A DNA stretch of 64,000 nucleotides, taken from contig NZ_JADWYX010000051.1 of assembly GCF_016786355.1 (NCBI RefSeq), positions 1 to 64,000 on the forward strand, in the 5' to 3' direction. The DNA is from Frankia sp. AgB1.9 (GTDB taxonomy: Bacteria > Actinomycetota > Actinomycetes > Frankiales > Frankiaceae). The notes below the pieces were generated by a model. That model made no database searches. It was given only the letters and a program-made list of their open reading frames with translations, and was not told where the DNA came from. Made by a program: the position numbers and the translations under genes. Below, one piece after another: positions 23,951 to 37,179 of this stretch. Numbering within the stretch: the stretch's first letter is position 1; every line of letters begins with the position of its first letter.

Positions 23951-25513
23951 GTGACCGCGACGGTGCCCGGTCGCGAGGCTCCAGGGCGGGCCGCGTCGCG
24001 TCGGGCCCGGGAGACACCGGAACGGCCGCCGGGCGGGGCCATCGCCGTCGAGAACGATCTCTACCGGGCCCAGCTGCGCTGGGAGCGCCGCTACGTCAGG
24101 GTCCTGATCGCCTTCGACGCCGCGGCCTGTGTGGTCGCGGCCGGAGTGGCCTACGTGATCAGGTTCGGTCCGTTCGGGACCCGGCACTTCGACACGGCCC
24201 GGGACACGTCGGAGTGGTACCTGCTGGCGCTGGTGCTGCTGCCGCTGGTCTGGGTCGTCTCGATGGCGCTGAACCGGGCCTACGAGCCGCGGTTCCTCGG
24301 CGGTGGGTCCGAGGAGTTCCGCCGGGTCGTCAACGCGGCGGTCCGGGTGGTCGCCACCGTCGCCACCGTGTCCTATGCGACCAAGGCCGAGGTCGCCCGC
24401 GCGTACGTGCTCATCGTCTTCCCGGTTGCCATCCTGCTGTCGATGGTCGGCCGGATCGGCGGCCGGGGCATCCTGCACCGGATGCGCCGGCAGGGCCGCT
24501 GCATGCACCGGGTGCTGGTCGTCGGCGCCGGCGAGTCGGCCGCGACCCTGGTCCGCCTCGCCCAGCGCGACCCGACCGCCGGCTGGTCGGTCGTCGGCGT
24601 CGTGCTGGACCGCCTGCCCGGCCGACACAGCCACGACCGGCCGGAGCGCAGCGGCTTCGACCTGCTCGGCGTACCGATCGTCGGCACCTCGGAGAGCCTG
24701 CACACCTCGATCCGGGCGACCCGCGCCACCACCGTCGCGATCTCCCCGCAGATGGACGGCGAGACGCTGCAGCGGGTGCTGTGGAACCTGGAGGGCTCGG
24801 ACGTCGACGTGCTGGTCTCGTCGGCGCTGACCGACGTCGTCGGGCCGCGGATCTCGATCCGGCCCGTCGCCGGCCTGCCGCTGCTGCACATCCGCGAGCC
24901 GGAGCTGTCCGGCTCCCGGCGGGTCATGAAGATCCTGTTCGACCGCGCGGTGGCGCTCACCGTCGTCGTGCTGTTCTCGCCCCTGCTGATCGCGTTGGCC
25001 CTCGCGGTCCGGCTCACCAGCCGAGGCCCGGCGATCTTCAAGCAGGTCCGGGTCGGCCGCGGTGGCGAGACGTTCAAGATGTACAAGTTCCGCTCGATGT
25101 ACGTCGACGCCGAGGCCCGCCTCGCCGGCCTGCAGACGAGCAACGAGGGCCAGGGACTGCTGTTCAAGATGCGCGACGACCCACGTGTCACCCGGGTCGG
25201 GAAGTTCCTGCGCAAGTGGTCGCTCGACGAGGTGCCGCAGCTGTTCAACGTGCTGAACGGCTCGATGTCGCTGGTCGGGCCCCGCCCGCCGCTGCCCCGT
25301 GAGGTCGCCCAGTACGAGGACGACGTGCACCGCCGGCTGATGGTCAAGCCCGGCCTGACCGGCCTGTGGCAGATCAGCGGGCGCTCGGACCTGAACTGGG
25401 ACGAGTCGGTCCGCCTCGACCTGCGCTACGTCGAGAACTGGACCCTGGCCATGGACTTCGTCATCCTCTGGCGCACCGTCTTCGCCGTCCTGCGCCGGGA
25501 AGGCGCTTACTAG
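23951..25513 (+). CDS. Exopolysaccharide polyprenyl glycosylphosphotransferase
   Basis: The 520-residue membrane protein has several N-terminal transmembrane helices (VLIAFDAAACVVAAGVAYVI and following). A nucleotide-binding-like middle follows (VLVVGAGESAATLVRLA), then a C-terminal bacterial sugar transferase domain (FKMYKFRSM, FLRKWSLDEVPQLFNVL, SLVGPRPPLPREV, GLTGLWQISGR). Such enzymes load the first sugar-1-phosphate onto undecaprenyl phosphate at the inner membrane. The GTG at 23951 is the likely start. Its stop overlaps the stop of the convergent ATPase gene in a shared CTAG. No other polysaccharide genes are adjacent. Confidence 0.92.
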   Translation: MTATVPGREAPGRAASRRARETPERPPGGAIAVENDLYRAQLRWERRYVRVLIAFDAAACVVAAGVAYVIRFGPFGTRHFDTARDTSEWYLLALVLLPLVWVVSMALNRAYEPRFLGGGSEEFRRVVNAAVRVVATVATVSYATKAEVARAYVLIVFPVAILLSMVGRIGGRGILHRMRRQGRCMHRVLVVGAGESAATLVRLAQRDPTAGWSVVGVVLDRLPGRHSHDRPERSGFDLLGVPIVGTSESLHTSIRATRATTVAISPQMDGETLQRVLWNLEGSDVDVLVSSALTDVVGPRISIRPVAGLPLLHIREPELSGSRRVMKILFDRAVALTVVVLFSPLLIALALAVRLTSRGPAIFKQVRVGRGGETFKMYKFRSMYVDAEARLAGLQTSNEGQGLLFKMRDDPRVTRVGKFLRKWSLDEVPQLFNVLNGSMSLVGPRPPLPREVAQYEDDVHRRLMVKPGLTGLWQISGRSDLNWDESVRLDLRYVENWTLAMDFVILWRTVFAVLRREGAY

Positions 25514-27063
25514 CCCTCCTGGGCGGCGGCTGCCTCGTAGCGTCGGTTTGGTGATCTTGTCGCGCCGATGGCGGTGACCAACCTCTGGTCCATCAGGGCC
25601 GTGAGGGCTGCCTTGACCCGGGCGCTGGTGAGCCCGGTCATGCTCTCGATCTCCCGGCGGGAAAGCGGCCGCGCGGCCGAGCGAATGGACTCGAGGACGA
25701 ACCAGTCTCGCTCGGCCGGAACCGTGGTACGAGATATCGAAGCGGTGGCTGCGTCCCTGGCCGTCGCATTGTCTCTGGCGGCCGCGGCGAGGTCGGCGCG
25801 CCGCGGGGGAGGCCCGCTGAGGGTCACCTCGAACCAGGAGATGTTGTCGGCGAACCGAGGCGCCGGCAGGCCAGCCACCGACATCGCCCGGACCATGGTG
25901 CGAATGCCGGATGCGCGGTTCTCGCAAACCGTCCTGCCCTCGCCCGGTACCTCGACGTCCTCCAGGAGCTTGAGCAGAAGGGCGTTGCGCGCCGACGACA
26001 GACCGGGCTCGCCGAGAGAGCTCACGCGGACGGCCCCGAAGAGGCCCCCGGGGTTGCGCACAGTTATCCGGTCCGGGTAGACCTCGACCTGGACCTGGGT
26101 GCCAAGTGAGTACTGGCCGAGGTCACGGTGCACGACCGCGTTCACGACCGCCTCCCGCAGCGCTTCCAGCGGGTACTCGTACACCGTTGACGCGCCGCCG
26201 CCCGGCGCGATGACCGTACCGCGTCGGATGGCCCGGGCAAGCTGCACGAGGGTTTCGCGAACCTGGAGCGGAACCGGGCCGTCGAACGCCCGGTTCTCGA
26301 GAAAACGCAAGCCGGTCCCGATCTCGGCGCCGTCGACCGTCGGGTACTCGACGAACGTGACCTCCAGCTGCGGGAAGAAGTGCTGTGGGAACCGGCCGAA
26401 GCAGAGCAGGCCGGCCAGCGAGGGCACCGGACCTGAATCGCCGGGCACCAGGACCCGGGTGGCCAGCAGAAGCTCACGATCGTCGAGGTCTCGGAAGGCG
26501 AACGGGCGCTGCAGACGCAGACGCTGAAGGTATGGCCCGACGATCTCCGGCATCAGGTCGCCCGGTGTGGCGTTCTGGACGGGGACGGTGTCGTCGACCG
26601 GCTGGCCACGGGCCGCGACCAGAGCGTGGACCTCGGCGGGACCGAGCCGGTAGTCGCCATCGCCTACGCGGACGTAGGAGCCGTTCGCCATGCCGGCGCC
26701 GCGGTAGTAGCAGGGCTTGGAGCTCCGATCCAGCTCGGCGACCTCCGCCACGACGAGCTGGACGCCCTCGAACTCCATGATCTCGATTAGTGGGGCCAGC
26801 GGCGGCGCCATCTGGTCACGCGAGAGATCGGCCAACGAGTCTCGGACCTTCTTCGGGTCAGCCACGCCGGTCGCCGCGAAACTGTGGGTCTCATCAAGCC
26901 CGAGCAGGATCACGCCGCCGCCTGGTGAGTTGGCGAACGCCGACAGGGTCTCCCGGGTCGACTTCGGCAGCTCCCGAGTAGCGCGCTTGGCCTCCACCCG
27001 AGCGAGATCCGTCCGCGAGTCGCGCAGCGTGCGAACGAGCTCGGCGAGTTCGGCGGCCAACAT
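25510..27063 (-). CDS. Schlafen/AlbA_2-type ATP-binding DNA-interaction protein
   Basis: The 517-residue protein has an N-terminal AlbA_2 (divergent AAA-4) domain: RVEAKRATRELPKS, LSAFANSPGGGVILLGLDE and GSYVRVGDGDYRL. A GHKL-like ATPase part contains the NAVVHRDL motif, and a winged-helix-like C-terminus follows (RREIESMTGLTSARVKAAL). Members act as transcription regulators and some occur in phage-defence loci; the role here is unknown. It is convergent with the sugar transferase (4-base overlap) and about 70 bases from the MFS gene. It may be accessory DNA. Confidence 0.85.
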   Translation of the reverse strand: MLAAELAELVRTLRDSRTDLARVEAKRATRELPKSTRETLSAFANSPGGGVILLGLDETHSFAATGVADPKKVRDSLADLSRDQMAPPLAPLIEIMEFEGVQLVVAEVAELDRSSKPCYYRGAGMANGSYVRVGDGDYRLGPAEVHALVAARGQPVDDTVPVQNATPGDLMPEIVGPYLQRLRLQRPFAFRDLDDRELLLATRVLVPGDSGPVPSLAGLLCFGRFPQHFFPQLEVTFVEYPTVDGAEIGTGLRFLENRAFDGPVPLQVRETLVQLARAIRRGTVIAPGGGASTVYEYPLEALREAVVNAVVHRDLGQYSLGTQVQVEVYPDRITVRNPGGLFGAVRVSSLGEPGLSSARNALLLKLLEDVEVPGEGRTVCENRASGIRTMVRAMSVAGLPAPRFADNISWFEVTLSGPPPRRADLAAAARDNATARDAATASISRTTVPAERDWFVLESIRSAARPLSRREIESMTGLTSARVKAALTALMDQRLVTAIGATRSPNRRYEAAAAQEG

Positions 27064-27136
27064 AGCGAGAGCTTAGCTCTACTTGGCGATACTTGGCGAA
27101 TTGCTTTGCCAGCTTGGCGGGCGTTGAGCCCGCGGT

Positions 27137-28591
27137 TCAGGTCTGTGCGTCGGTTGGGCGGCCTGGCAGGCCGCGGCTGAGGACGAGCATCGCGACGGCC
27201 GCGGCGGCCAGGAGTACGAACAGCCAGGTCAGCCAGTGCGCGCCGGCCCGCGCCTGGAGCAGGCCCAGCGTCGTGACGCCCAGCGAGGCGGACAGCTGGA
27301 CGGACATGAACACGGCGGTCGTGCCCTGCGGCTGCTCGGCCGGCGGGAGAAGCCGGAAGACGGTGGCGAAGGTCGGCGACGCGGTCAGGCCGAAGCCCAG
27401 CCCGATCCCGACGAACAGCGCGAACACCGCCGGCAGCGGAAGCCGGTCGTGGGCGAAGGCGAACGTCGTCAGACCGGCCGCGGTGACGACCGCGCCGGCG
27501 CGGACGAGCGGACGAGGCCCCGTCCGGTCGCTGACCCGCCCGCCCCACGACATCGACACGAACAGGCCGAGGCCCAGCGCGCACACCAACAGGCCCTGGC
27601 CGGCGCCGCGCAGGTGGTGGCGGTCCGCGCCGAAGATCGGCAGTGCGGCCTGCTGCCCGTACATCAGCAGGCCGACGCAGCACATCACCGCGAGGCTCGT
27701 GGCGAACCCGGGCCGCCGCAGCAGGCGTAGGTCGAACGCGGGTGGTGTCCGCGCCGTCAGCGCGTGCCTGACATACCCGGCGAGCAGCGCGGCTCCCGCG
27801 ACCGCGGCCGTGATGGTCACGGCGTCGGCACCCGCCTGGCCCGATCGGGTCAGCGCGAACAGGAGCCCGACGTAACCCGTCGTCAGCAGGGCCAGGCCGC
27901 GCAGGTCCGCGCGGGGCGCCGCGGCCGGTTCCGTTCCTGCCCCGCCGGTCGCGGCCTCGGCTCGGCCGGTGGGCCGGTCGGCCGGGATGAAGGCGATGGC
28001 GACGGCGAACAGGCCGAGGGTCAGCGGGATGTTGACGACGAAGATCCACTGCCAGTGGCCGGTCGCGAGCAGCAGGCCGCCGACCACCGGGCCGAGGGCC
28101 GGCGCGACGTTGATGATCATCGAGATCGTGCCCAGGACCCGGCCGACCCGGTCCTGGCGGGCGAGTCGGGCCGCGAGCATGAGCGACGTCGGCTCCAGCA
28201 GGCCGCCGCCCAGGCCCTGCACCACCCGGAACGCGATCAGCGCGCCCGCCGACCAGGCGAGGGCCGACAGCGCGGAGCCGAGCCCGAACAGCCCGAGCCC
28301 GACCAGGAAGACCAGCCGCCCGCCGAACCGCGCGGTAGCCCAGTTGAGCAGCGGCAGCATGGTCGCGGCGGCCAGCAGGTAGCCGACGCTGGTCCAGACG
28401 ACCGTCGTGAGCGGGGCGTGCAGGTCGGCCGTCAGCGTGCGCAGCGCGACGGAGACCACGGTGCCGTCCAGGACCGCCACCAGTGCGGCGAGCCCCAGCG
28501 CGAGCAGCGCGCCCGTCGGCGCTCCCGGTTCCTCGGCCGGCTCGGCGACCTCGGTCTGCGTACCCGAACCGACGGTTGTGTTTACGGTCAT
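27137..28591 (-). CDS. MFS drug/H+ antiporter, DHA2 (EmrB/QacA) family
   Basis: The 484-residue protein has the DHA2 features: VAVLDGTVVSVALRTL in helix 1, a helix-4 segment IAFRVVQGLGGGLLEPTS, motif C-like GPVVGGLLL, and about 14 hydrophobic segments. It should export toxic compounds using the proton gradient. It is divergently transcribed from a TetR gene with a dyad in the 73-base gap, the usual self-regulated efflux arrangement. The substrate cannot be told. Confidence 0.92.
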   Translation of the reverse strand: MTVNTTVGSGTQTEVAEPAEEPGAPTGALLALGLAALVAVLDGTVVSVALRTLTADLHAPLTTVVWTSVGYLLAAATMLPLLNWATARFGGRLVFLVGLGLFGLGSALSALAWSAGALIAFRVVQGLGGGLLEPTSLMLAARLARQDRVGRVLGTISMIINVAPALGPVVGGLLLATGHWQWIFVVNIPLTLGLFAVAIAFIPADRPTGRAEAATGGAGTEPAAAPRADLRGLALLTTGYVGLLFALTRSGQAGADAVTITAAVAGAALLAGYVRHALTARTPPAFDLRLLRRPGFATSLAVMCCVGLLMYGQQAALPIFGADRHHLRGAGQGLLVCALGLGLFVSMSWGGRVSDRTGPRPLVRAGAVVTAAGLTTFAFAHDRLPLPAVFALFVGIGLGFGLTASPTFATVFRLLPPAEQPQGTTAVFMSVQLSASLGVTTLGLLQARAGAHWLTWLFVLLAAAAVAMLVLSRGLPGRPTDAQT

Positions 28592-28601
28592 GGCGCAAAA
28601 C

Positions 28602-28625
28602 TACACCACACGGTTTAGTGTTGTA
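28602..28625. promoter_or_regulatory. Candidate TetR operator between the MFS and tetR genes
   Basis: Imperfect dyad: TACACCAC (28602-28609) and GTGTTGTA (28618-28625) match as inverted repeats at 7 of 8 positions, around an 8-base AT-rich spacer. It lies just upstream of the MFS start and between the divergent genes. Confidence 0.45.
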
Positions 28626-28664
28626 ACGTCCGTTCGCCGTCAACCCTGGGGCTACACTGGGCGG

Positions 28665-29303
28665 ATGGCGGTTGTGGACGCGAAGCGAGTGGCTCGTCCG
28701 GACAAGCGACGCGTGATCCTCGACGCGGCGGCACCGATCTTCGGTGACGAGGGATACGAGCGGGCGAGTGTCGACGCGATCGCCACGGCCGCCGGCGTCT
28801 CCAAGCCGACGATCTACAGCTACTTTGGCGGCAAGGACCAGCTGTTCCGCGAGTCGGTCGCGGACTCGGCCGTCCAGCTGAACGCCGACGCCCTCGAGGT
28901 GATCCAGCGCCTCGACCTCTCGGCGGTCGGCTGGCGCGACAGCCTGCGCGAGCTGGGCCTGCGCCTCGTCGAGTGCCAGCGCACCCCGTGCTCGCTCTTC
29001 CTCGCCCGCATGATCGCGGCGGAGACCGCCCGCGACCCCGAGGTCTACCGGCTGGTGCGCGTCAAGGCGGAGGCTCCGATCATGGAGGCGCTGGCGGGGC
29101 GCCTGGCGATGCTCGGCAATGCCGGCCACCTGGTGGTCCCCGACCCGACGCGGGCCGCCCACCAGTTCCTCGCCCTGATCGGCGCCGAGATCCAGGTCCT
29201 CACCGAGCACGGCACCGCGGCCGTCCCAGACGAGCTGATCCGGGCCGCCGTCGCTGCGGGCGTCGACACCTTCCTGCGCGCGCACGCCCGACCGCCCCAG
29301 TAG
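28665..29303 (+). CDS. TetR-family transcriptional regulator
   Basis: The 212-residue protein has a TetR helix-turn-helix at residues about 14-60 (RRVILDAAAPIFGDEGYERASVDAIA, then GVSKPTIYSYFGGKDQLF) and a ligand-binding helical domain with SLFLARMIAAETARDPE. It should repress the divergent MFS exporter and itself. The ATG at 28665 is set by the conserved N-terminus. Confidence 0.93.
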   Translation: MAVVDAKRVARPDKRRVILDAAAPIFGDEGYERASVDAIATAAGVSKPTIYSYFGGKDQLFRESVADSAVQLNADALEVIQRLDLSAVGWRDSLRELGLRLVECQRTPCSLFLARMIAAETARDPEVYRLVRVKAEAPIMEALAGRLAMLGNAGHLVVPDPTRAAHQFLALIGAEIQVLTEHGTAAVPDELIRAAVAAGVDTFLRAHARPPQ

Positions 29304-29317
29304 GCGGGGCGACGAGA

Positions 29318-29343
29318 AAGGCGGCGGTCGGGACCGCCGCCTT
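29318..29343. terminator. Bidirectional hairpin terminator
   Basis: Perfect 12-bp arms AAGGCGGCGGTC / GACCGCCGCCTT around two bases lie between the convergent tetR and cysQ stops. With A at one end and T at the other, it can serve both directions. Confidence 0.85.
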
Positions 29344-29361
29344 CGTGTGCCGCGGGGTGAC

Positions 29362-30135
29362 TCAGCCGGAGGACGACGCCCGGATCGCGGCCAGCACCGC
29401 CTCGGCCAGCTCGGGCCGGCAGATCACGAGGTCGGGCAGCAGCGGGTCGGCCTGGTTGTACCGCAGCGGCGAGCCGTCGATCCGGGTCGCGTGCAGACCC
29501 GCGGCGAGCGCGACCGCGACCGGGGCGGCCGAGTCCCACTCGTACTGGCCGCCGGCGTGCAGGTAGACGTCAGCCTCCCCGCGGATCACCGCGGAGGCCT
29601 TGGCGCCGGCCGAGCCCATCGGTATGACGACGCCGCCGATCCTCTCGGTGACGTCGGTGACGAGCTTGGGTGCCCTGGTACGGCTCGCGACCAGGCGTAC
29701 CGGCCCGGCCGGTCCGGCCGGCGGTGGGGTGATCGTCGCGCTCGACAGCGTGACCCCGACGGCCGGCAGCGCGACGGCCCCGGCGACGAGCCCGCCGGCC
29801 TGCCACAGCGCGACGTGCACGGCCCAGTCGGTGCGGCCCTCCTCGGCGAACTCCCGGGTGCCGTCGAGCGGGTCGACGATCCAGACCCGGTCGGCGCGGA
29901 GGCGGACCGGGTCGTCGACGGCCTCCTCGGACAGCACGGCGTCCTTCGGGCGGTGGCGGGCGAGCGCCGCGGCGAGCAGCCGCTGGGAGCCGGCGTCGCC
30001 GGCGTCCTTGAGTGCGGGCCCGTCCGCGAAGCCAACCTCGGCTCGGATCTCCAGCAGTCGTCGTCCGGCGTCTTCGGCCAGGAGGCTCGCGAGCTCGGCG
30101 TCGGCCAGCTCGGCGGTTGTGGTGTCGATGCTCAC
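29362..30135 (-). CDS. cysQ: 3'(2'),5'-bisphosphate nucleotidase (CysQ-like inositol monophosphatase family)
   Basis: The 257-residue protein has the Mg-dependent phosphatase motifs: LSEEAVDD (metal ligand Glu), WIVDPLDGTREF (D-x-x-D-G-T) and YEWDSAAPVAVALAAG. CysQ removes the 3'-phosphate of PAP/PAPS from sulfate assimilation. The divergent neighbour is an ATP-sulfurylase-like protein, which supports a sulfur-nucleotide role. Inositol-phosphate activity is the alternative. Confidence 0.88.
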   Translation of the reverse strand: MSIDTTTAELADAELASLLAEDAGRRLLEIRAEVGFADGPALKDAGDAGSQRLLAAALARHRPKDAVLSEEAVDDPVRLRADRVWIVDPLDGTREFAEEGRTDWAVHVALWQAGGLVAGAVALPAVGVTLSSATITPPPAGPAGPVRLVASRTRAPKLVTDVTERIGGVVIPMGSAGAKASAVIRGEADVYLHAGGQYEWDSAAPVAVALAAGLHATRIDGSPLRYNQADPLLPDLVICRPELAEAVLAAIRASSSG

Positions 30136-30279
30136 CGTTCCGATTTTATGGCAGAAGGCTGCCGCGAATCACGAGAACCGTCCTGCTCGGGCTGGCGGAG
30201 CGGTCGGGGCCATCCTGCCGTACGGCGAGCCAACGCCGTCGGACCGGCCGTCTTGTCACCGGACGGCTACGGTCCGAAG

Positions 30280-31443
30280 GTGCCCGTGCGCTGCCCCGTG
30301 CTCGTCGACGAGGACCGCGCCGCCGAGCTGTCGGCCGCCTCGGCCGGCTGGCCGTCGGCGCGGCTGACCCGTGCGCAGCTCGCCGACCTCGAGCTGCTGC
30401 TGCTCGGCGCCTTCGGACCGGCACCGGGCTACCCGGAGGACACCCTGCGCGACGGGCTGCGGCTGCCCTCGCTGGTCGTCCCGGCGCGAGACGCGGCCGG
30501 TCTCGGCCCCGGCGACGCCGTCGCGTTGCGGGAGCCCGAAGGTGAGCTCGTCGCGGCCATGCGGGTCGCCGGCGTCCGCCGGCGCGGTGGGCCGGTGGAC
30601 GCCGACAAGGAACGCACCGCGGCGCTGGCGCGGACGGCGAGCCGGGTCGAGCCCGACCGGCAGCCCGAGCCCACCGGCCGGGCCCGGCTGGTCGGCACGG
30701 TCGCGGGGCTGCGGCTGCCGAGCCACCCCGACTACCCGGAGCTGCGGCTGAGCCCCGTCGAGCTGCGTTCGGCGCTCACCGAACGCGGCTGGCTGCGCCC
30801 CGGCCGGTCGGCGCCCTGGGCGGTCTGGGCCGACGGCCTGCTGCACACGGCGGACATCGCTCGCATCCGGGCCCTCACCCGGCAGGGCAAGTACTGCGTC
30901 GTGCTCGCTCCGGTAGGCGGGACCGACCCGGGGGACCGGCGCTACCAGCTGCGCGTGCGCGCCCTGCTCGCGGCGCTCGACGCCCTCGACGAGCCGGTCC
31001 GCCCGACCGAGGCGACCCTGACCGCCGCCGCGCTCGCGGCCGAGGCCACCGGCGCTCCGGTGCAGCCGCCGGTGCCCACGCCGTCCCGGGTCGGGTCGGG
31101 CCAGCCGGCGCACGCGCTGCTGGTCCTGGTCCCGGTCGTGCCGAGCCCGGAGCTCGCCGCGCCCCGGGAGCCGGGGCTGTCCGCGACCTCTCCGCACGGT
31201 GCCGCGGCCGGTGACGACACCGGCACCGCGGACCGTGCCGCCGAGCTGGGCGCGCTGCGGGCCCACCTGGCCGAGTTCTACGGTCTGGGCGGCAGCCTCA
31301 CCGGTCCGGCACTCGGCGCCCCCGGGCGCGGTGAGCTGGCCGCGCTGCTCGCCGCCGGCAGGCCGATCCCCGCCGAGCTCAGCCCGCCCGGGGTGGCCGC
31401 CGAGCTCGACCGAGCCCACGCCGAGGGCTGGCTGCTCGGCTGA
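30280..31443 (+). CDS. Degenerate ATP-sulfurylase-like protein
   Basis: Residues about 25-160 resemble the PUA-like N-terminal domain of ATP sulfurylase: LTRAQLADLELLLLGAFGP, then LGPGDAVALREPEGELVA and later HPDYPELRLSPVELRSAL. The following part keeps VGGTDPGD (about residues 212-219) and RYQLRVRALLAAL, like the catalytic domain. However, the QxRNPxHxxH substrate motif is replaced by WADGLLHTADIARI. The 387-residue protein probably cannot make APS normally. It is divergent from cysQ. The GTG at 30280 is the likely start. Homology is by eye and should be treated as a hypothesis. Confidence 0.6.
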   Translation: MPVRCPVLVDEDRAAELSAASAGWPSARLTRAQLADLELLLLGAFGPAPGYPEDTLRDGLRLPSLVVPARDAAGLGPGDAVALREPEGELVAAMRVAGVRRRGGPVDADKERTAALARTASRVEPDRQPEPTGRARLVGTVAGLRLPSHPDYPELRLSPVELRSALTERGWLRPGRSAPWAVWADGLLHTADIARIRALTRQGKYCVVLAPVGGTDPGDRRYQLRVRALLAALDALDEPVRPTEATLTAAALAAEATGAPVQPPVPTPSRVGSGQPAHALLVLVPVVPSPELAAPREPGLSATSPHGAAAGDDTGTADRAAELGALRAHLAEFYGLGGSLTGPALGAPGRGELAALLAAGRPIPAELSPPGVAAELDRAHAEGWLLG

Positions 31444-31465
31444 CGCCGACGCCGGCCGACGATCG

Positions 31466-31636
31466 GGCTAGTTGTCGAGGCCGGCAAGGCTCTCAGTTCC
31501 GGCGTCCCCATGATCGCTGGTTCGGCCCCCCGGTGGTCGTAACCTGGCCTGTTTCGTAGCCACCAGAGGGCGAAAACGGCGATCAAGGCGACGGGCAGAC
31601 CCTGGCGGTCGCGGCACTGGCTAGTTGTCGAGGCCG
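31466..31636. repeat. 18-bp direct repeats bracketing a palindromic element
   Basis: GGCTAGTTGTCGAGGCCG is present at 31466-31483 and again at 31619-31636. The second copy carries the last codons and stop of the YbjQ-domain gene. The first looks like a duplicated target site, with 135 bp containing a palindromic element between them. Confidence 0.85.
31511..31585. repeat. Palindromic element, copy 1 (diverged)
   Basis: TGATCGCTGGTTCGGCCC on the left and AGGGCGAAAACGGCGATCA on the right form imperfect arms around GGTGGTCGTAACC...GTAGCCACC. It is the same family as the elements at 40686 and 41618. Confidence 0.8.
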
Positions 31637-32478
31637 AGGGTGAACTGGGGCTTGGGCGCGGTGTCGGCCAGGCGGTGGGCCGGGTCCAGCGTGCGGATCG
31701 CGGTTCCGGTCGCGAAGAACTCGGTCGCGTGCTCGCCCCAGACATGGTTGCTCACCACGAGGTCGACGCCGACGATGCCGTTGGCCCCGGCCTGGGCCGC
31801 CTCGGCCTGCATGCGGGTCAGCGCCAGCTCGCGAGCCTGGTAGACCCCCTGGGTGAACGTGGTCATCTCCTGGTTGACGCCGACCTGGCGTAGCGACTGG
31901 AAGACGCCCTGGTGGGCGATGTGGTAGACGCAGGTGCCGAGGACGAAGGCCACCGGTACCGAGCCCGCCGCCAGCAGCCGGTAGAAGTCCTGCGCGGACA
32001 GGTCCGAGGTGAACGGGTGCCCGTTGGGCGCGCGGTGGGCCCCCGGCGACCGGATCGCCCGCACGGCCGTGCCCGCCGCGATGAACTCCAGGACGTTCTG
32101 GCCCCAGGCGTAGTACTGCACGCGCAGTTTCACCCCGACGATGCCGTCCGCGCCCAGCCGCTCGGCCTCGCTCTGCATCCGGCCCATCGCCAGCTCGCGC
32201 GCCGAGTACATCGCCTGGCTGAGCACGCCCAGCTCCTGGTTCGTCTTCCACCCCGCGGCCTGCAGGCCGATGTGGTAGATCGACGAGCCGACGACGAACC
32301 CCAGCGGCTCGAATCCGGCCTCGTTGAGCAGCACGTACTCCGACACCGAGAGGTCCGACGTGAAGACCCCGTTCGGCGCCGCTCCCGCCGTCATCGCCAG
32401 CCGCGTTCCGGCGGCGTCGGGTTCCCACCCGGCGCCGGGTGGCTGCTGGCTGTCGCCGCCGCGACCGAACCCCGCCAT
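31621..32478 (-). CDS. Tandem YbjQ/heavy-metal-binding-domain protein
   Basis: The 285-residue protein has two copies of a YbjQ (UPF0145)-like domain. The first is about residues 36-145 (SLEGFVVGSSIYHIG-like, ARELAMGRMQSEAERLGADGIVGVKL, EFIAAGTAVR). The second is about 155-270 (CVYHIAHQG, ARELALTRMQAEAAQAGANGIVGVDLV, EFFATGTAIR). Usual members have one domain of about 105 residues and form pentamers. A GAGGAGGG ribosome site supports the ATG at 32478. Function is unknown; the family name reflects proposed metal binding. Confidence 0.85.
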   Translation of the reverse strand: MAGFGRGGDSQQPPGAGWEPDAAGTRLAMTAGAAPNGVFTSDLSVSEYVLLNEAGFEPLGFVVGSSIYHIGLQAAGWKTNQELGVLSQAMYSARELAMGRMQSEAERLGADGIVGVKLRVQYYAWGQNVLEFIAAGTAVRAIRSPGAHRAPNGHPFTSDLSAQDFYRLLAAGSVPVAFVLGTCVYHIAHQGVFQSLRQVGVNQEMTTFTQGVYQARELALTRMQAEAAQAGANGIVGVDLVVSNHVWGEHATEFFATGTAIRTLDPAHRLADTAPKPQFTLGLDN

Positions 32479-32675
32479 GACGCCCTCCTCGATCGCGCCC
32501 GGCCGCCGGCCTGACCAGCCCGCCGCCCCGGGAACCTGGCGGCACGCTACGCGCCGAATAGGTATCGGCCGAGCCCGGGTAGCGGCCAGGACCGTGGTCC
32601 GACCCGGCAATGGCACGGGTCGGTCCGGCGCGCGACCCAATGACCGGCTTCGGTCACGGCGCTACATTTCGGTTC

Positions 32676-33149
32676 ATGGCTTCGCCCTCGCGGCCACCGG
32701 CCGAACCGCCCCAGCCGACCGGATTGCCGCCTGCGGGTTCGCCGCCGCCGGGGCAACCTCCGGACGCGCTCGGGAATCTCGTCGTCGCGCATCTCCGACG
32801 GGTGGAGACGGCGATGCTGGCGCACGTCCTCGTGACGACGCTGGCCGGGGCACTGCCGCCGTCGATGGTGCGCGTCGAACGCCGCCGCTCCGTCACCGGC
32901 CGGCTTGCCCGTCGGCCTGGCGAGCCCGTCGGCGTGAGCGTCCTGGCCGCCGACCGGATGCTGACGTTCCGCATTCCGGCCCTGGGCCTGATCGAGGCGA
33001 GCGTCAGCCATGTCGTGCACGGCGTGGTTCTCTCGACGGCCCCCACCACCGTCACCGACTGGCTCGACCAGCTCAGCGCCCTGCTCACCGAGATCAGCCG
33101 GAGAGACGAGGCCACCCGAGGGGCCCTCGAACGTTTCCTGGTCGGCTGA
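32676..33149 (+). CDS. Hypothetical protein with Pro-rich N-terminus
   Basis: I do not recognise a family. The 157-residue product has about 30 Pro/Ser-rich residues, then a soluble alpha/beta part (NLVVAHLRRVETAMLAHVLVTTLAG, VSVLAADRMLTFRIPALGLIEASVSHVVHGVVLS) ending with an amphipathic helix. Codon composition looks like the coding neighbours. It is divergent from the YbjQ gene, 197 bases away. ATG 32676 is one option; the frame opens at 32610. Confidence 0.55.
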   Translation: MASPSRPPAEPPQPTGLPPAGSPPPGQPPDALGNLVVAHLRRVETAMLAHVLVTTLAGALPPSMVRVERRRSVTGRLARRPGEPVGVSVLAADRMLTFRIPALGLIEASVSHVVHGVVLSTAPTTVTDWLDQLSALLTEISRRDEATRGALERFLVG

Positions 33150-33250
33150 GCCGCGCCGGCCTGATCTGCTGAAATCCAGCGGGCAATCGCCGCCGGCGAC
33201 GACTGTTGAGGAGCGCGTGTCGTTCGCGGGTCTGCCGGCAGGCGGCTTCG

Positions 33251-34333
33251 CTACGAGCCGAGTCCGGGAATGATGTCGGAGAGCGTGTAGGTGAGTGGCT
33301 GCTCAAGTTGCTCGTAGGTGCAGGAATCGGGGGTGCGGTCGGCGCGCCACCGGACGAAGTGGGCCAGGTGCCGGAAGCGGGTGCCCTCCATGTGCTCGTA
33401 CTTGACCTCCAGCACCCGCTCGGGACGCAGCGGGATGAACGACAGGTCCTTCTGCGCGTTCCACCGGTTCACGTTGCCGGGCAGCCGCTGGCTCTGGTGC
33501 GCCTCGGCGCTGGCCCACTCCTGCCACGGATGGTCGTCGCCGTCGCCGAGCAGGAGCGGGGCGAGTTCGTCCACCAGTTCGGCCCGGCGCTTGGCGGTGA
33601 AAGCCCCGACGACGCCGACGTGCTGCAGCTTGTTCTCGTCGTTGTAGAGCCCGAGCAGCAGCGAGCCGACGAGCGGGGTGGCCACCGTGGACGTCTTGTG
33701 CCAGCGGAAGCCGGCGAGGACGCAGTCGGCGGTGCGGACATGCTTGATCTTGAACATGACACGCTTGTCAGGCTGGTAGACGCCCTCCAGCGGCTTGGCG
33801 ATCACGCCGTCGAGGTGTGCGCCTTCGAGCTCGACGAACCAGCGGTTGGCGACGTCCAGATCGGTAGTGGTCGCGGTGAGGTGGACCGGCGCCTTCGCCG
33901 TGGCCAACGCGGCTTCGAGCGCGGCGCGCCGTTCGGAGAACGGGCGCCCGGTGTAGTCCTCGTCGCCGAGCGCGAGCAGATCGAAAGCGATGAACGAGGC
34001 CGGGGTCGTCCCGCTCAACAGCTTGACCCGCGACACCGCGGGGTGGATGCGCTGCTGCAACGCCTCGAAGTCCAGCCTGCCGTCCAGGGCGATGACGATC
34101 TCGCCGTCGAGGACGCACCGGTCGGGCAGTTCGGCCTTGACCGCCTCGACCAGCTCGGGGAAGTAGCGGGTCATCGGCTTCTCGTTGCGGCTGCCGAGCT
34201 CGACCTCGTCACCGTCCCGGAAACAGATGCACCTGAAGCCGTCCCATTTGGGCTCATAGGACGCCCCGGATGGGATGGTCGGGACCGACTTCGCCAGCAT
34301 CGGCGCGACCGGCGGCATCACGGGCAGCTTCAT
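33251..34333 (-). CDS. ligC: ATP-dependent DNA ligase (LigC type)
   Basis: The 360-residue protein has the adenylated Lys29 in EPKWDGFR, nucleotidyltransferase motifs LDGEIVI and FEALQQRIHP, DGVIAKPLEGVY, and an OB-fold domain ending with EVKYEHMEGTRFRH. Length and sequence match LigC, the stand-alone actinobacterial ligase linked to base-excision and backup end-joining repair. No Ku or LigD gene is nearby. ATG 34333 removes an upstream open extension without family similarity. Confidence 0.9.
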   Translation of the reverse strand: MKLPVMPPVAPMLAKSVPTIPSGASYEPKWDGFRCICFRDGDEVELGSRNEKPMTRYFPELVEAVKAELPDRCVLDGEIVIALDGRLDFEALQQRIHPAVSRVKLLSGTTPASFIAFDLLALGDEDYTGRPFSERRAALEAALATAKAPVHLTATTTDLDVANRWFVELEGAHLDGVIAKPLEGVYQPDKRVMFKIKHVRTADCVLAGFRWHKTSTVATPLVGSLLLGLYNDENKLQHVGVVGAFTAKRRAELVDELAPLLLGDGDDHPWQEWASAEAHQSQRLPGNVNRWNAQKDLSFIPLRPERVLEVKYEHMEGTRFRHLAHFVRWRADRTPDSCTYEQLEQPLTYTLSDIIPGLGS

Positions 34334-34451
34334 CGGCTCATTGTCCCTTGCCCTCGGTACCTGGGTTCTCGCCCCGCTCGATCCGACGCCGGGCTTCGGC
34401 TGCGATCTGAGCAGGATCCCCCGGCTGGCCTCCGGTCGCGTCGGGAGGCGG

Positions 34452-36767
34452 TCATCGTGCCTGCGCAAGCGTGGGGAGGTCGTCGTTGTTCGCGACGATC
34501 GCGGGGCTGGCCAGCCAGCGCAGATAGGCCGACCGCGCGGCCGGGGACATCCGCTCCGGCGGCAGCGGCCGGCCGTCGGCGTCGAGAAAGGCGTCCGCCG
34601 GGCCGGTGATGAACCCGTCGAGGCGTGGATCTCCGGTGAAGGTCCGGCGGACGCCGGCGGCGTCGGTCACCTCGACCGGCAGGATCGGGTCGTCGCCGCG
34701 CCGCAGCCAGACGGCTGTCGCCGAGGCCCGGTAGGCCTCCTGCCAGCCGGGCCGGACCGCCGCGGCGGCTGCCACCCCGGCGATCGTCGAGAGCGCCTCG
34801 GACCCGGGCCGCCCATCCGGTTTCGCCGCGTCGGCGGCGGCCGCGACCGTCACGCCGACGGTGACGCCGTAGAGGGTGGCGACCAGGTCGTCGACCTTGA
34901 CGGCCCGGGCGGTGGCGGCGAGCTGGTCGATCGCCAGAGTCGTCCGGCGGGCCGCGTCGTCGGCGGTCAGCTCGGCGCGCAGGGTCAGCCCGGCGGCGGT
35001 GTCGGCGAGCGCCGTGAGGAAGAACGACACCATCGCGGCCTGCTGGAGATGGACGAGCGCGCGCGGGCTCGCCGGGTACGCGACCTGGCCGTCGCCCCGG
35101 TAGCCGCGGGTCGCGGCCCAGCCCGCCTGCCCCAGGTCGGCCGCCTGCCGCAGCGCGTCCGACCCCAGAGCCGTGGCCGTCGGGCCGCCCGCGGCCAGGG
35201 CCTCGCCGAGCAGGGCCGCCCACAGCTCGGCCGGAATCCGCGCGCCGTCCGCCGGCCCGGCCAGCCGCGCCGACCAGGGGCCGCCCGCGCCGCCGCCAGC
35301 CGCGCGCCCGGCCGCGGCGGCCGGCCAGACCGCGACCAGGCCCCGGCCTGAGGGGCCGCGCAGCGCGTCGCCGGCGGGCAGCAGGCCCACGGCCGACGCG
35401 TACAGCTCGGCCCGCCAGACGTGCAACAGGTCGCCGATCGCGGCGCGCAGGCCGGTCGGGAGCGGCCAGGAGCTGTCGCGCCGCAACCGAGGGTCCGCGT
35501 GGGTGACCTGGTAGTGGTAGATCGTGAAGCCGAGCCGCGCCACGAACGTCGCGGCACCGGCCGGATCGGCCTGCCGGGCGCCGATCCCTCCTGCCCGGCT
35601 GACCAGGTACTCCCAGGCACTGGCCACCGGAGCCGGGACGCCCGGTCTGATCGGCGCAGGCAATGCCGACACCCGTGCGCCCGCGACGATCGCCTCCACG
35701 TGGTCGGTCGCGAACCGGGCAACGAGCGTCGGCTCGTCCGCGATGGCCCGCAGCAGGGCGGCCGCGTACGTGGCTCGCCGTCGGCCCGCGGGATCGGCAC
35801 CCAACAGTCCGATGTCCCGCGTGACCGGCGAGGAGCCGCTGACCCGGGCGCCGGCTCCGGTGAGCAGACCGTCGCGGGTGCGGTAGCGATCGCCGGAGAC
35901 GTCGGTCGTCGCGAAGAGCGCGTCGCCGAGCAGGCGCAGGGTGGCCGGGGCGAACCGGCCGGCCGCGAGCAGCGGGCCGAGCAGCGTGGTCTCGGCCTGG
36001 CCACGCACATCGCGCGCGTTGAACCGGCTCAGCCAGACCGCGGTGAGCAGCCCGGACCGGCTGAAGGTCGCGAGCGCCGAGCCGAGCGTGGCCGTGAGGT
36101 CGCCCGCCAGCGCGGTCGGAAGCCATCGGCCCGGGGCGTCGGCCCGGGTGCGGTCGCCGCCGCGCGCGGGCCTGACCCGGTAACCGTCCGCCGTCTCGGT
36201 GACCACGAAGCCGCCGGAGCCGACGTGCTCGGCCAGGCGTAGGACGACGGCCAGCCGCGCCGGCCCGACGGCCCCGACGAGACCCGCGGCGAAGTCCGGG
36301 TCGTGCGCGGACGTCCGCAGCTGGGCGACGACGCCGGCGAGCGTCGTCAGGTCCGCCGCCGGTGCCAGCGCGGCGCCGACGAGCTCCAGACCGAGCCGGG
36401 CCCCTGCGTCCCGCGCAGCCAGACCGTCGCCGCCGAACGGGTCGGGCCGCAGCGTCACCACGAGCCGGCCACCGCCGCCGGACTGCGCCGCGGTTCCACC
36501 GGCACCGCCGGTCGGCGCGGCGCCGAGGCTCGCGTCGGCAGCCTGGGCCTGGGCGAGCCGACGCGTCAGCCTCGCGGCCGAGGTGTCGGCCCAGCCCGCG
36601 CCCGCGTGCAGCGCGACGACGGGGTCCGCCGGCCAGCCGAGCGGCCCGAGCAGCGCCACCACCGCCCGGGCCCACCGGCCGAGCAGGTCGCGCAGATCCC
36701 GCAGCCGCTGCGCCAGCACGCGGGCCAGGCCCTGGTCCAGGACGACTCGCTCACTCGGGCCGGGCAT
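34452..36767 (-). CDS. Large protein of unknown function, partner of a WXG-like protein
   Basis: The 771-residue, Ala/Leu-rich helical protein has no motif I can tie to an enzyme. Visible landmarks are WARAVVALLGPLGWPADPV near the start, a linker with TGGAGG, segments such as SRSGLLTAVWLSRFNARDV, and EAYRASATAVWLRRGDDPI near the end. It starts 4 bases after the WXG-like gene stop, so the two are translationally linked. Frankia and Streptomyces encode large proteins in such positions that I recall as DUF6571-like. That, and any toxin-like or secreted role, is inference. There is no signal peptide. Confidence 0.65.
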   Translation of the reverse strand: MPGPSERVVLDQGLARVLAQRLRDLRDLLGRWARAVVALLGPLGWPADPVVALHAGAGWADTSAARLTRRLAQAQAADASLGAAPTGGAGGTAAQSGGGGRLVVTLRPDPFGGDGLAARDAGARLGLELVGAALAPAADLTTLAGVVAQLRTSAHDPDFAAGLVGAVGPARLAVVLRLAEHVGSGGFVVTETADGYRVRPARGGDRTRADAPGRWLPTALAGDLTATLGSALATFSRSGLLTAVWLSRFNARDVRGQAETTLLGPLLAAGRFAPATLRLLGDALFATTDVSGDRYRTRDGLLTGAGARVSGSSPVTRDIGLLGADPAGRRRATYAAALLRAIADEPTLVARFATDHVEAIVAGARVSALPAPIRPGVPAPVASAWEYLVSRAGGIGARQADPAGAATFVARLGFTIYHYQVTHADPRLRRDSSWPLPTGLRAAIGDLLHVWRAELYASAVGLLPAGDALRGPSGRGLVAVWPAAAAGRAAGGGAGGPWSARLAGPADGARIPAELWAALLGEALAAGGPTATALGSDALRQAADLGQAGWAATRGYRGDGQVAYPASPRALVHLQQAAMVSFFLTALADTAAGLTLRAELTADDAARRTTLAIDQLAATARAVKVDDLVATLYGVTVGVTVAAAADAAKPDGRPGSEALSTIAGVAAAAAVRPGWQEAYRASATAVWLRRGDDPILPVEVTDAAGVRRTFTGDPRLDGFITGPADAFLDADGRPLPPERMSPAARSAYLRWLASPAIVANNDDLPTLAQAR

Positions 36768-36771
36768 CGCT

Positions 36772-37179
36772 CTACCGCCCGTCGCGCAGGTAGCCGAGCC
36801 TGGCTGCCGGCCGGATGGCCCGTGGGTCATCCGGCGCGACCCATTCCGGCTGGGACGCGGCCGTGTGCGCGCAGCTCAGCGCCGTGTCCTCGAGCGCCCG
36901 CCTGATGCTGGTTCCCGCGCGGGCGAGTTCGCCCGCCCAGATGTCGGCGGCCGGCCCGGCCCAGGCGCCGGCGTCGAGCGCTGCCGTCAGACCGCTGAAC
37001 GCCGCGGCGATCTCGGCCGCGCCACGGTCCAGGACAGCCGCGGTGGTCAGCAACGCGCCGCGGCGCTCGTTGACGACCAGCCCCGCCGGCGCCCCCGCCC
37101 CGCTCCCGGCTTCCGCCACGACCGGCCCGGCCAGAACCGGCCCTGCCGCGGCCAGCCCGTCAACAACCCGCCCTGCCAT
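36772..37179 (-). CDS. WXG100-like small helical protein
   Basis: The 135-residue protein contains a WAGPAADIWAGELARAG segment with helical flanks, the pattern of WXG100/ESX proteins, though it is longer than the usual 100 residues. Such proteins form helical hairpins exported by type VII secretion, sometimes with large effector partners. The next gene, 4 bases away, codes the 771-residue protein. No type VII apparatus genes are in the window. Confidence 0.6.
   Translation of the reverse strand: MAGRVVDGLAAAGPVLAGPVVAEAGSGAGAPAGLVVNERRGALLTTAAVLDRGAAEIAAAFSGLTAALDAGAWAGPAADIWAGELARAGTSIRRALEDTALSCAHTAASQPEWVAPDDPRAIRPAARLGYLRDGR

Follow-up and report, generated by a model that had tools for sequence, protein, structure and literature searches.

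What does an ATP-sulfurylase-like protein do once the motifs of sulfurylase catalysis have gone, and why is its gene kept? The question is raised by a locus in the window analysed here, a stretch of 64,000 nucleotides from Frankia sp. AgB1.9, a member of the Frankiaceae with a 9.8 Mb genome whose nearest named relatives are Pseudofrankia. The locus carries a stand-alone gene for a sulfurylase-like domain (SLD) next to cysQ. An earlier note on this DNA had let the gene span 29362-31443; the SLD gene occupies 30280-31443, whereas 29362-30135 belongs to cysQ, which is encoded on the other strand. The start at about 30280 was inferred from a GTG codon aligned with the start codons of relatives. 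The features of the locus are the following.

29362..30135, minus strand: cysQ, 3'(2'),5'-bisphosphate nucleotidase of the inositol-monophosphatase family (Inositol_P; best NCBIfam model bisphos_cysQ)
30136..30279: intergenic region of 144 bases between cysQ and the SLD gene, predicted to hold probable divergent promoters
30280..31443, plus strand: stand-alone SLD gene, 387 amino acids, GTG start
30301..30573, plus strand: PUA-like N-terminal domain (PF14306), from Pfam
30739..30990, plus strand: PF01747 match, residues 154-237, part of the ATP-sulfurylase catalytic-domain fold
30826..30855, plus strand: WADGLLHTAD, counterpart of the catalytic QxRNPxHxxH, from alignment and conservation over 28 proteins
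30913..30936, plus strand: VGGTDPGD segment, from alignment and conservation
about 31416/31417, plus strand: deletion junction, from comparison with the endings of the relatives L009 and L010
31417..31440, plus strand: HAEGWLLG, the last eight residues of a deleted APS kinase, fused directly to the SLD

The neighbour had been named correctly as cysQ, and its description as divergent is right in the sense of divergent transcription. This arrangement is general in the family: cysQ adjoins the SLD gene in 27 of 31 loci, divergently in 26, and the adjacency is absent in four. In genome G034 (L013/L113) cysQ is co-directional with a fusion whose kinase is broken. The plus-strand reading over 29362-30135 is a shadow of the minus-strand cysQ and no part of the SLD gene, and an antisense open frame of 387 amino acids over the SLD gene was rejected, as dN/dS is about 2 when the sequence is read in that frame.

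Fold and former active site

The SLD protein matches the PUA-like family PF14306 (E 8e-6) and the ATP-sulfurylase family PF01747 (E 1.4e-4), both single-sequence scores lying slightly under the Pfam gathering cut-offs, and the NCBIfam model of bifunctional SAT/APS kinases, PRK05537 (E 1e-16). A single-sequence search of the PDB gave 3cr8, the two-domain APS kinase of Thiobacillus denitrificans, as the best match (E 4e-9). A profile built from 38 relatives found ATP sulfurylases at up to 1e-107, and since this profile includes canonical enzymes, the single-sequence match counts as the more stringent evidence. An AlphaFold2 model from 38 sequences (pLDDT 74, pTM 0.74) was used in place of a poor one from 9 sequences (pLDDT 52), which was set aside. 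In Foldseek its top match was again 3cr8 (E 2.9e-15, TM-score about 0.6), and its 32 hits with E under 0.001 comprise nothing but ATP sulfurylases and SAT/APS-kinase proteins. Among 35 genomes of the order the gene recurs in 33, so the resemblance is not due to chance. Strong profile and fold matches thus give the protein the PUA-like domain and sulfurylase fold of the ATP sulfurylases; the earlier note had proposed as much, and a fold prediction that might have returned an unrelated structure returned this one.

In the alignment, canonical VAFQTRNPMHRAH corresponds to AVWADGLLHTAD of the Frankiaceae proteins. The Q, R, N and second H of QxRNPxHxxH are replaced and the first H is kept, and the ATP-binding loop GRDHAGPG is absent from the SLD protein when it is aligned with canonical enzymes. 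The change of the catalytic motif to WADGLLHTAD and the survival of VGGTxPGD had both been read correctly before. Judged from these motifs, the protein is a catalytically dead ATP-sulfurylase domain. The site is rewritten, not lost: over 28 Frankiaceae proteins, residues 181-192 form the most conserved stretch of 12 residues (mean 98.8% versus 66% overall), a maximum at odds with random decay, and VLAPVGGTDPGD, the region of VGGTDPGD, comes second. D185, T190, A191 and D192 are invariant. One fused relative (L003/L014) has Tyr in place of H189, a substitution that speaks against a His essential to catalysis; in another, Ser replaces G186.

Comparison with known systems places this domain more closely. 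The bifunctional SAT/APS kinase (PRK05537; Aquifex 2gks), likely the ancestor type, shares domain order and fold with the Frankiaceae fusions described below; it has both activities with canonical QTRNPMHRAH and GRDHAGPG, whereas the window protein has neither motif. The protein of 3cr8 (Gay et al. 2009, as cited in PMC13213808 and PMC3734648), the nearest by sequence and fold, also has an inactive sulfurylase-like domain, with the motif QARQPMHRAQ, but bears an active APS kinase; in the window protein the kinase is missing and the motif is rewritten further. This inactive domain of T. denitrificans has been proposed to stabilise the hexamer (cited in PMC13213808). In Entamoeba histolytica EhAPSK (PDB 23vk/23vl) an SLD without substrate-binding loop makes the attached kinase more active, and in EhAPSK-deltaKD the SLD folds and was crystallised without it (PMC13213808). 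The kinase-less form is there a laboratory construct, whereas that of the window is natural and under selection. In P. chrysogenum ATP sulfurylase (1i2d/1m8p) the converse is found: according to the account in PMC13213808, a dead APS-kinase-like C-terminal domain is kept as allosteric regulator of an active sulfurylase, whereas the window protein has a dead sulfurylase half and has lost its kinase by deletion. Literature searches returned nothing on a kinase-less or pseudoenzyme sulfurylase.

In a phylogenetic tree the SLDs fall into two clades, one of Frankiaceae and one of the families f90 and f7 (probably Micromonosporaceae with their relatives), both apart from canonical enzymes. The f90/f7 SLD/APS-kinase fusions are a more distant type with a TDRPLHH-like motif. 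Asp commonly replaces the motif Arg in both clades, and on this tree, with its long branches, activity may have been lost once or twice. The f90 APS kinases L073, L076, L077, L081, L083-L087, L089-L091 and L093 have a still shorter dead SLD, with about 225-250 amino acids ahead of the kinase, a further stage of reduction; the members aligned carry the motif AVTMRGPLDD.

In-frame loss of the APS kinase

In Frankiaceae relatives an APS kinase follows the SLD within one open frame (PF01583, E 6e-57 in L003 and 2e-50 in L001), and PF01583 has no match in the window SLD protein. These fusions are its direct orthologues, as indicated by 55-72% identity over the SLD, the conserved cysQ neighbour and trees; they carry the same motif, and the intact ones all have a P-loop. 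The 31 family loci comprise 25 with an intact P-loop, two with a full-length but broken kinase, three without kinase and one that is masked. Among the loci examined, only those of the window genome and of its sister species G029 and G032 lack the kinase altogether. All three share a deletion that is exactly in frame and about 177-180 codons long, which joins ...PPGVAAELDRA directly to HAEGWLLG, followed by the stop; at the same place L009 reads ...PPAVAAELARAYPPR[kinase]VLTYLHAEGWLLP, and the C-terminal ends of the kinase in relatives are LHAEGWLLP (L009) and LRTEGWLPA (L010). An assembly artefact was considered and rejected, because in G029 and G032 the same junction lies inside one-contig sequences. 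The SLD protein is the former front half of a two-domain protein from which the kinase has been removed in frame. It keeps the inactive N-terminal SLD of the SLD-type APS kinases and is orthologous to the fusions, and lacks their C-terminal P-loop kinase. A decayed stand-alone sulfurylase is rejected, as the open frame runs into an APS kinase across the Frankiaceae. "Degenerate ATP-sulfurylase-like protein", the wording of the earlier note, was apt for the fold and the lost motifs, but it overlooked the SLD/APS-kinase family to which the protein belongs and the deletion of the kinase.

In two further genomes, G030 and G034, the kinase is of full length but has P-loops reading GPSGPG-ST and GPPDAGTS and damage in further motifs; its APS_kinase scores are 86.5 and 37 bits, respectively, versus 175-182 in three intact congeners. 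The branches of the congener tree support neither a single kinase-loss event behind the deleted and broken forms nor any particular order of breakage and deletion.

The surroundings of the gene are also rearranged. Positions 23951-36830 of the window were compared with L001, L002, L112 and L114. In the deletion carriers, all three, a DNA ligase gene and a gene for a 792-amino-acid protein lie downstream of the SLD gene; their place in relatives is upstream of cysQ, and the rearrangement has a breakpoint close to the SLD gene's 3' end. The 792-amino-acid protein (34452-36830, minus strand) is conserved in the family at 41-90% identity and has no Pfam match. A Schlafen AlbA_2/HATPase_c_4 protein (25510-27063, minus strand) also lies beside the locus in G029, G032 and L002; its gene was not found in the other stretches compared.

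Selection on the domain left behind

The remaining SLD is under purifying selection. All three deletion carriers keep its open frame; among them 86 of 120 SLD differences fall at codon position 3 and dN/dS is 0.137-0.144, the most distant pair giving 0.14 (95% bootstrap 0.09-0.22). This is the level of cysQ (0.15-0.26), and constraint is no weaker than on the SLD of fused relatives (0.23-0.43). In comparisons with the two broken-kinase proteins the kinase reaches 0.56-0.79, against 0.09-0.41 in intact proteins, and the SLD stays at 0.32-0.39; constraint has thus been lifted from the kinase but not from the dead domain. Purifying selection on a protein without its catalytic motif is the mark of a pseudoenzyme, and a dead domain selected without its kinase suggests a job of its own, perhaps regulatory.

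Sulfate activation is provided for elsewhere in the genome. The earlier note had advised looking for a canonical cysD/N or sat: in the window genome no PF01747 Sat scored over threshold, but cysD is present in five copies accompanied by cysN-C fusions. These copies (contigs C31, C192, C261, C244 and C214; L026-L030) share 75-95% nucleotide identity, an unusual redundancy, and two kinase matches of the set end at about residue 51, perhaps at assembly breaks. One further PF01507 protein is probably CysH. At the SLD locus neither cysD nor cysN-C was seen as a conserved neighbour. At least one other APS kinase is kept in each of the eight genomes of the genus, exactly one in G032, and the fused kinase was therefore redundant. 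Redundancy may account for the loss of the kinase; it does not explain why the dead half is kept.

Proposed role and rival explanations

The reading preferred here, given about an even chance, is that a dead SLD inherited from a two-domain APS kinase binds a ligand or partner and acts in trans in sulfate activation. A rewritten and nearly invariant pocket that outlives the kinase most likely still binds a ligand or protein, and with the kinase absent, activation in cis or stabilisation of its hexamer is impossible, which makes a role in trans the most economical reading. The SLD would be retained as a ligand-binding or regulatory pseudo-sulfurylase; its pocket would still bind a pathway ligand (APS, PAPS or PAP) or a protein, and it might act as a subunit that regulates or serves as a scaffold. 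Its partner would most likely be the APS-kinase domain of CysN-C, which supplies PAPS in these genomes, with genetic coupling to the PAP/PAPS-degrading CysQ alongside; the CysN-C kinases are candidates for this part. Several points weigh against this reading. The precedent concerns action on a kinase belonging to the same protein or oligomer and not on CysN-C, and the loss of the GRDHAGPG loop and of QxRN may mean that no nucleotide is bound at all. The exceptions to the divergent cysQ arrangement, four loci without the adjacency and one with co-directional genes, count against it too, as does the lack of a conserved cysD/cysN-C neighbour. The more specific version, that the former regulatory half of an APS kinase has become a free-standing pseudo-sulfurylase, acting as independent ligand sensor or CysN-C trans subunit with a new pocket chemistry (WADGLLHTAD) peculiar to the Frankiaceae, is put forward tentatively, as something possible but doubtful. 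The earlier proposal of a regulatory or nucleotide-sensing pseudoenzyme of sulfur metabolism comes close to this: pseudoenzyme is the best reading of fold, lost motifs and purifying selection, although that proposal had been made without the kinase deletion.

The serious rivals of the role in trans are an enzyme with a new activity and a scaffold that binds no ligand. Conservation culminating in the pocket, with D185, T190, A191 and D192 invariant, and selection continuing without the kinase would both suit a neofunctionalised enzyme in which D185, H189, D192 and VGGTDPGD catalyse another reaction, for example on another nucleotide or a sulfated compound; the Tyr and Ser found at positions 189 and 186 in relatives and the missing ATP-binding loop speak against it and make it rather unlikely. 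Equally improbable is a purely structural role, in which the SLD would hold an oligomer together or stabilise a partner without any ligand. The hexamer stabiliser proposed in T. denitrificans, in the account of PMC13213808, offers a precedent, but here the protein's own kinase is gone and cannot be stabilised, and conservation peaks in the former active site and not on an evident interface.

That the remainder is a pseudogene on its way out, left by a kinase lost and broken in parallel within the genus, is very improbable, since the bootstrap upper bound on dN/dS between deletion-carrying species is only 0.22, the frame is open in all three and constraint equals that on cysQ. A still-active, strongly divergent ATP sulfurylase would account for the overall fold and the kept VGGTDPGD, but it is hardly credible in view of the four replaced motif residues, the lost loop and the five cysD copies available for that reaction.

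The role of the dead SLD in two-domain APS kinases is disputed between hexamer stabilisation and activation of the attached kinase, as PMC13213808 presents it. APS kinases with an inactive SLD were already known; what is new here is a naturally kinase-less SLD under purifying selection. The locus amounts to a natural domain-removal experiment, in which the active kinase has been removed by deletion or, in sister species, disrupted, while selection on the dead domain has stayed strong; the SLD therefore has a function for which its own kinase is not required. Close relatives with intact, broken and missing kinases provide a ready comparison for the role of the SLD.
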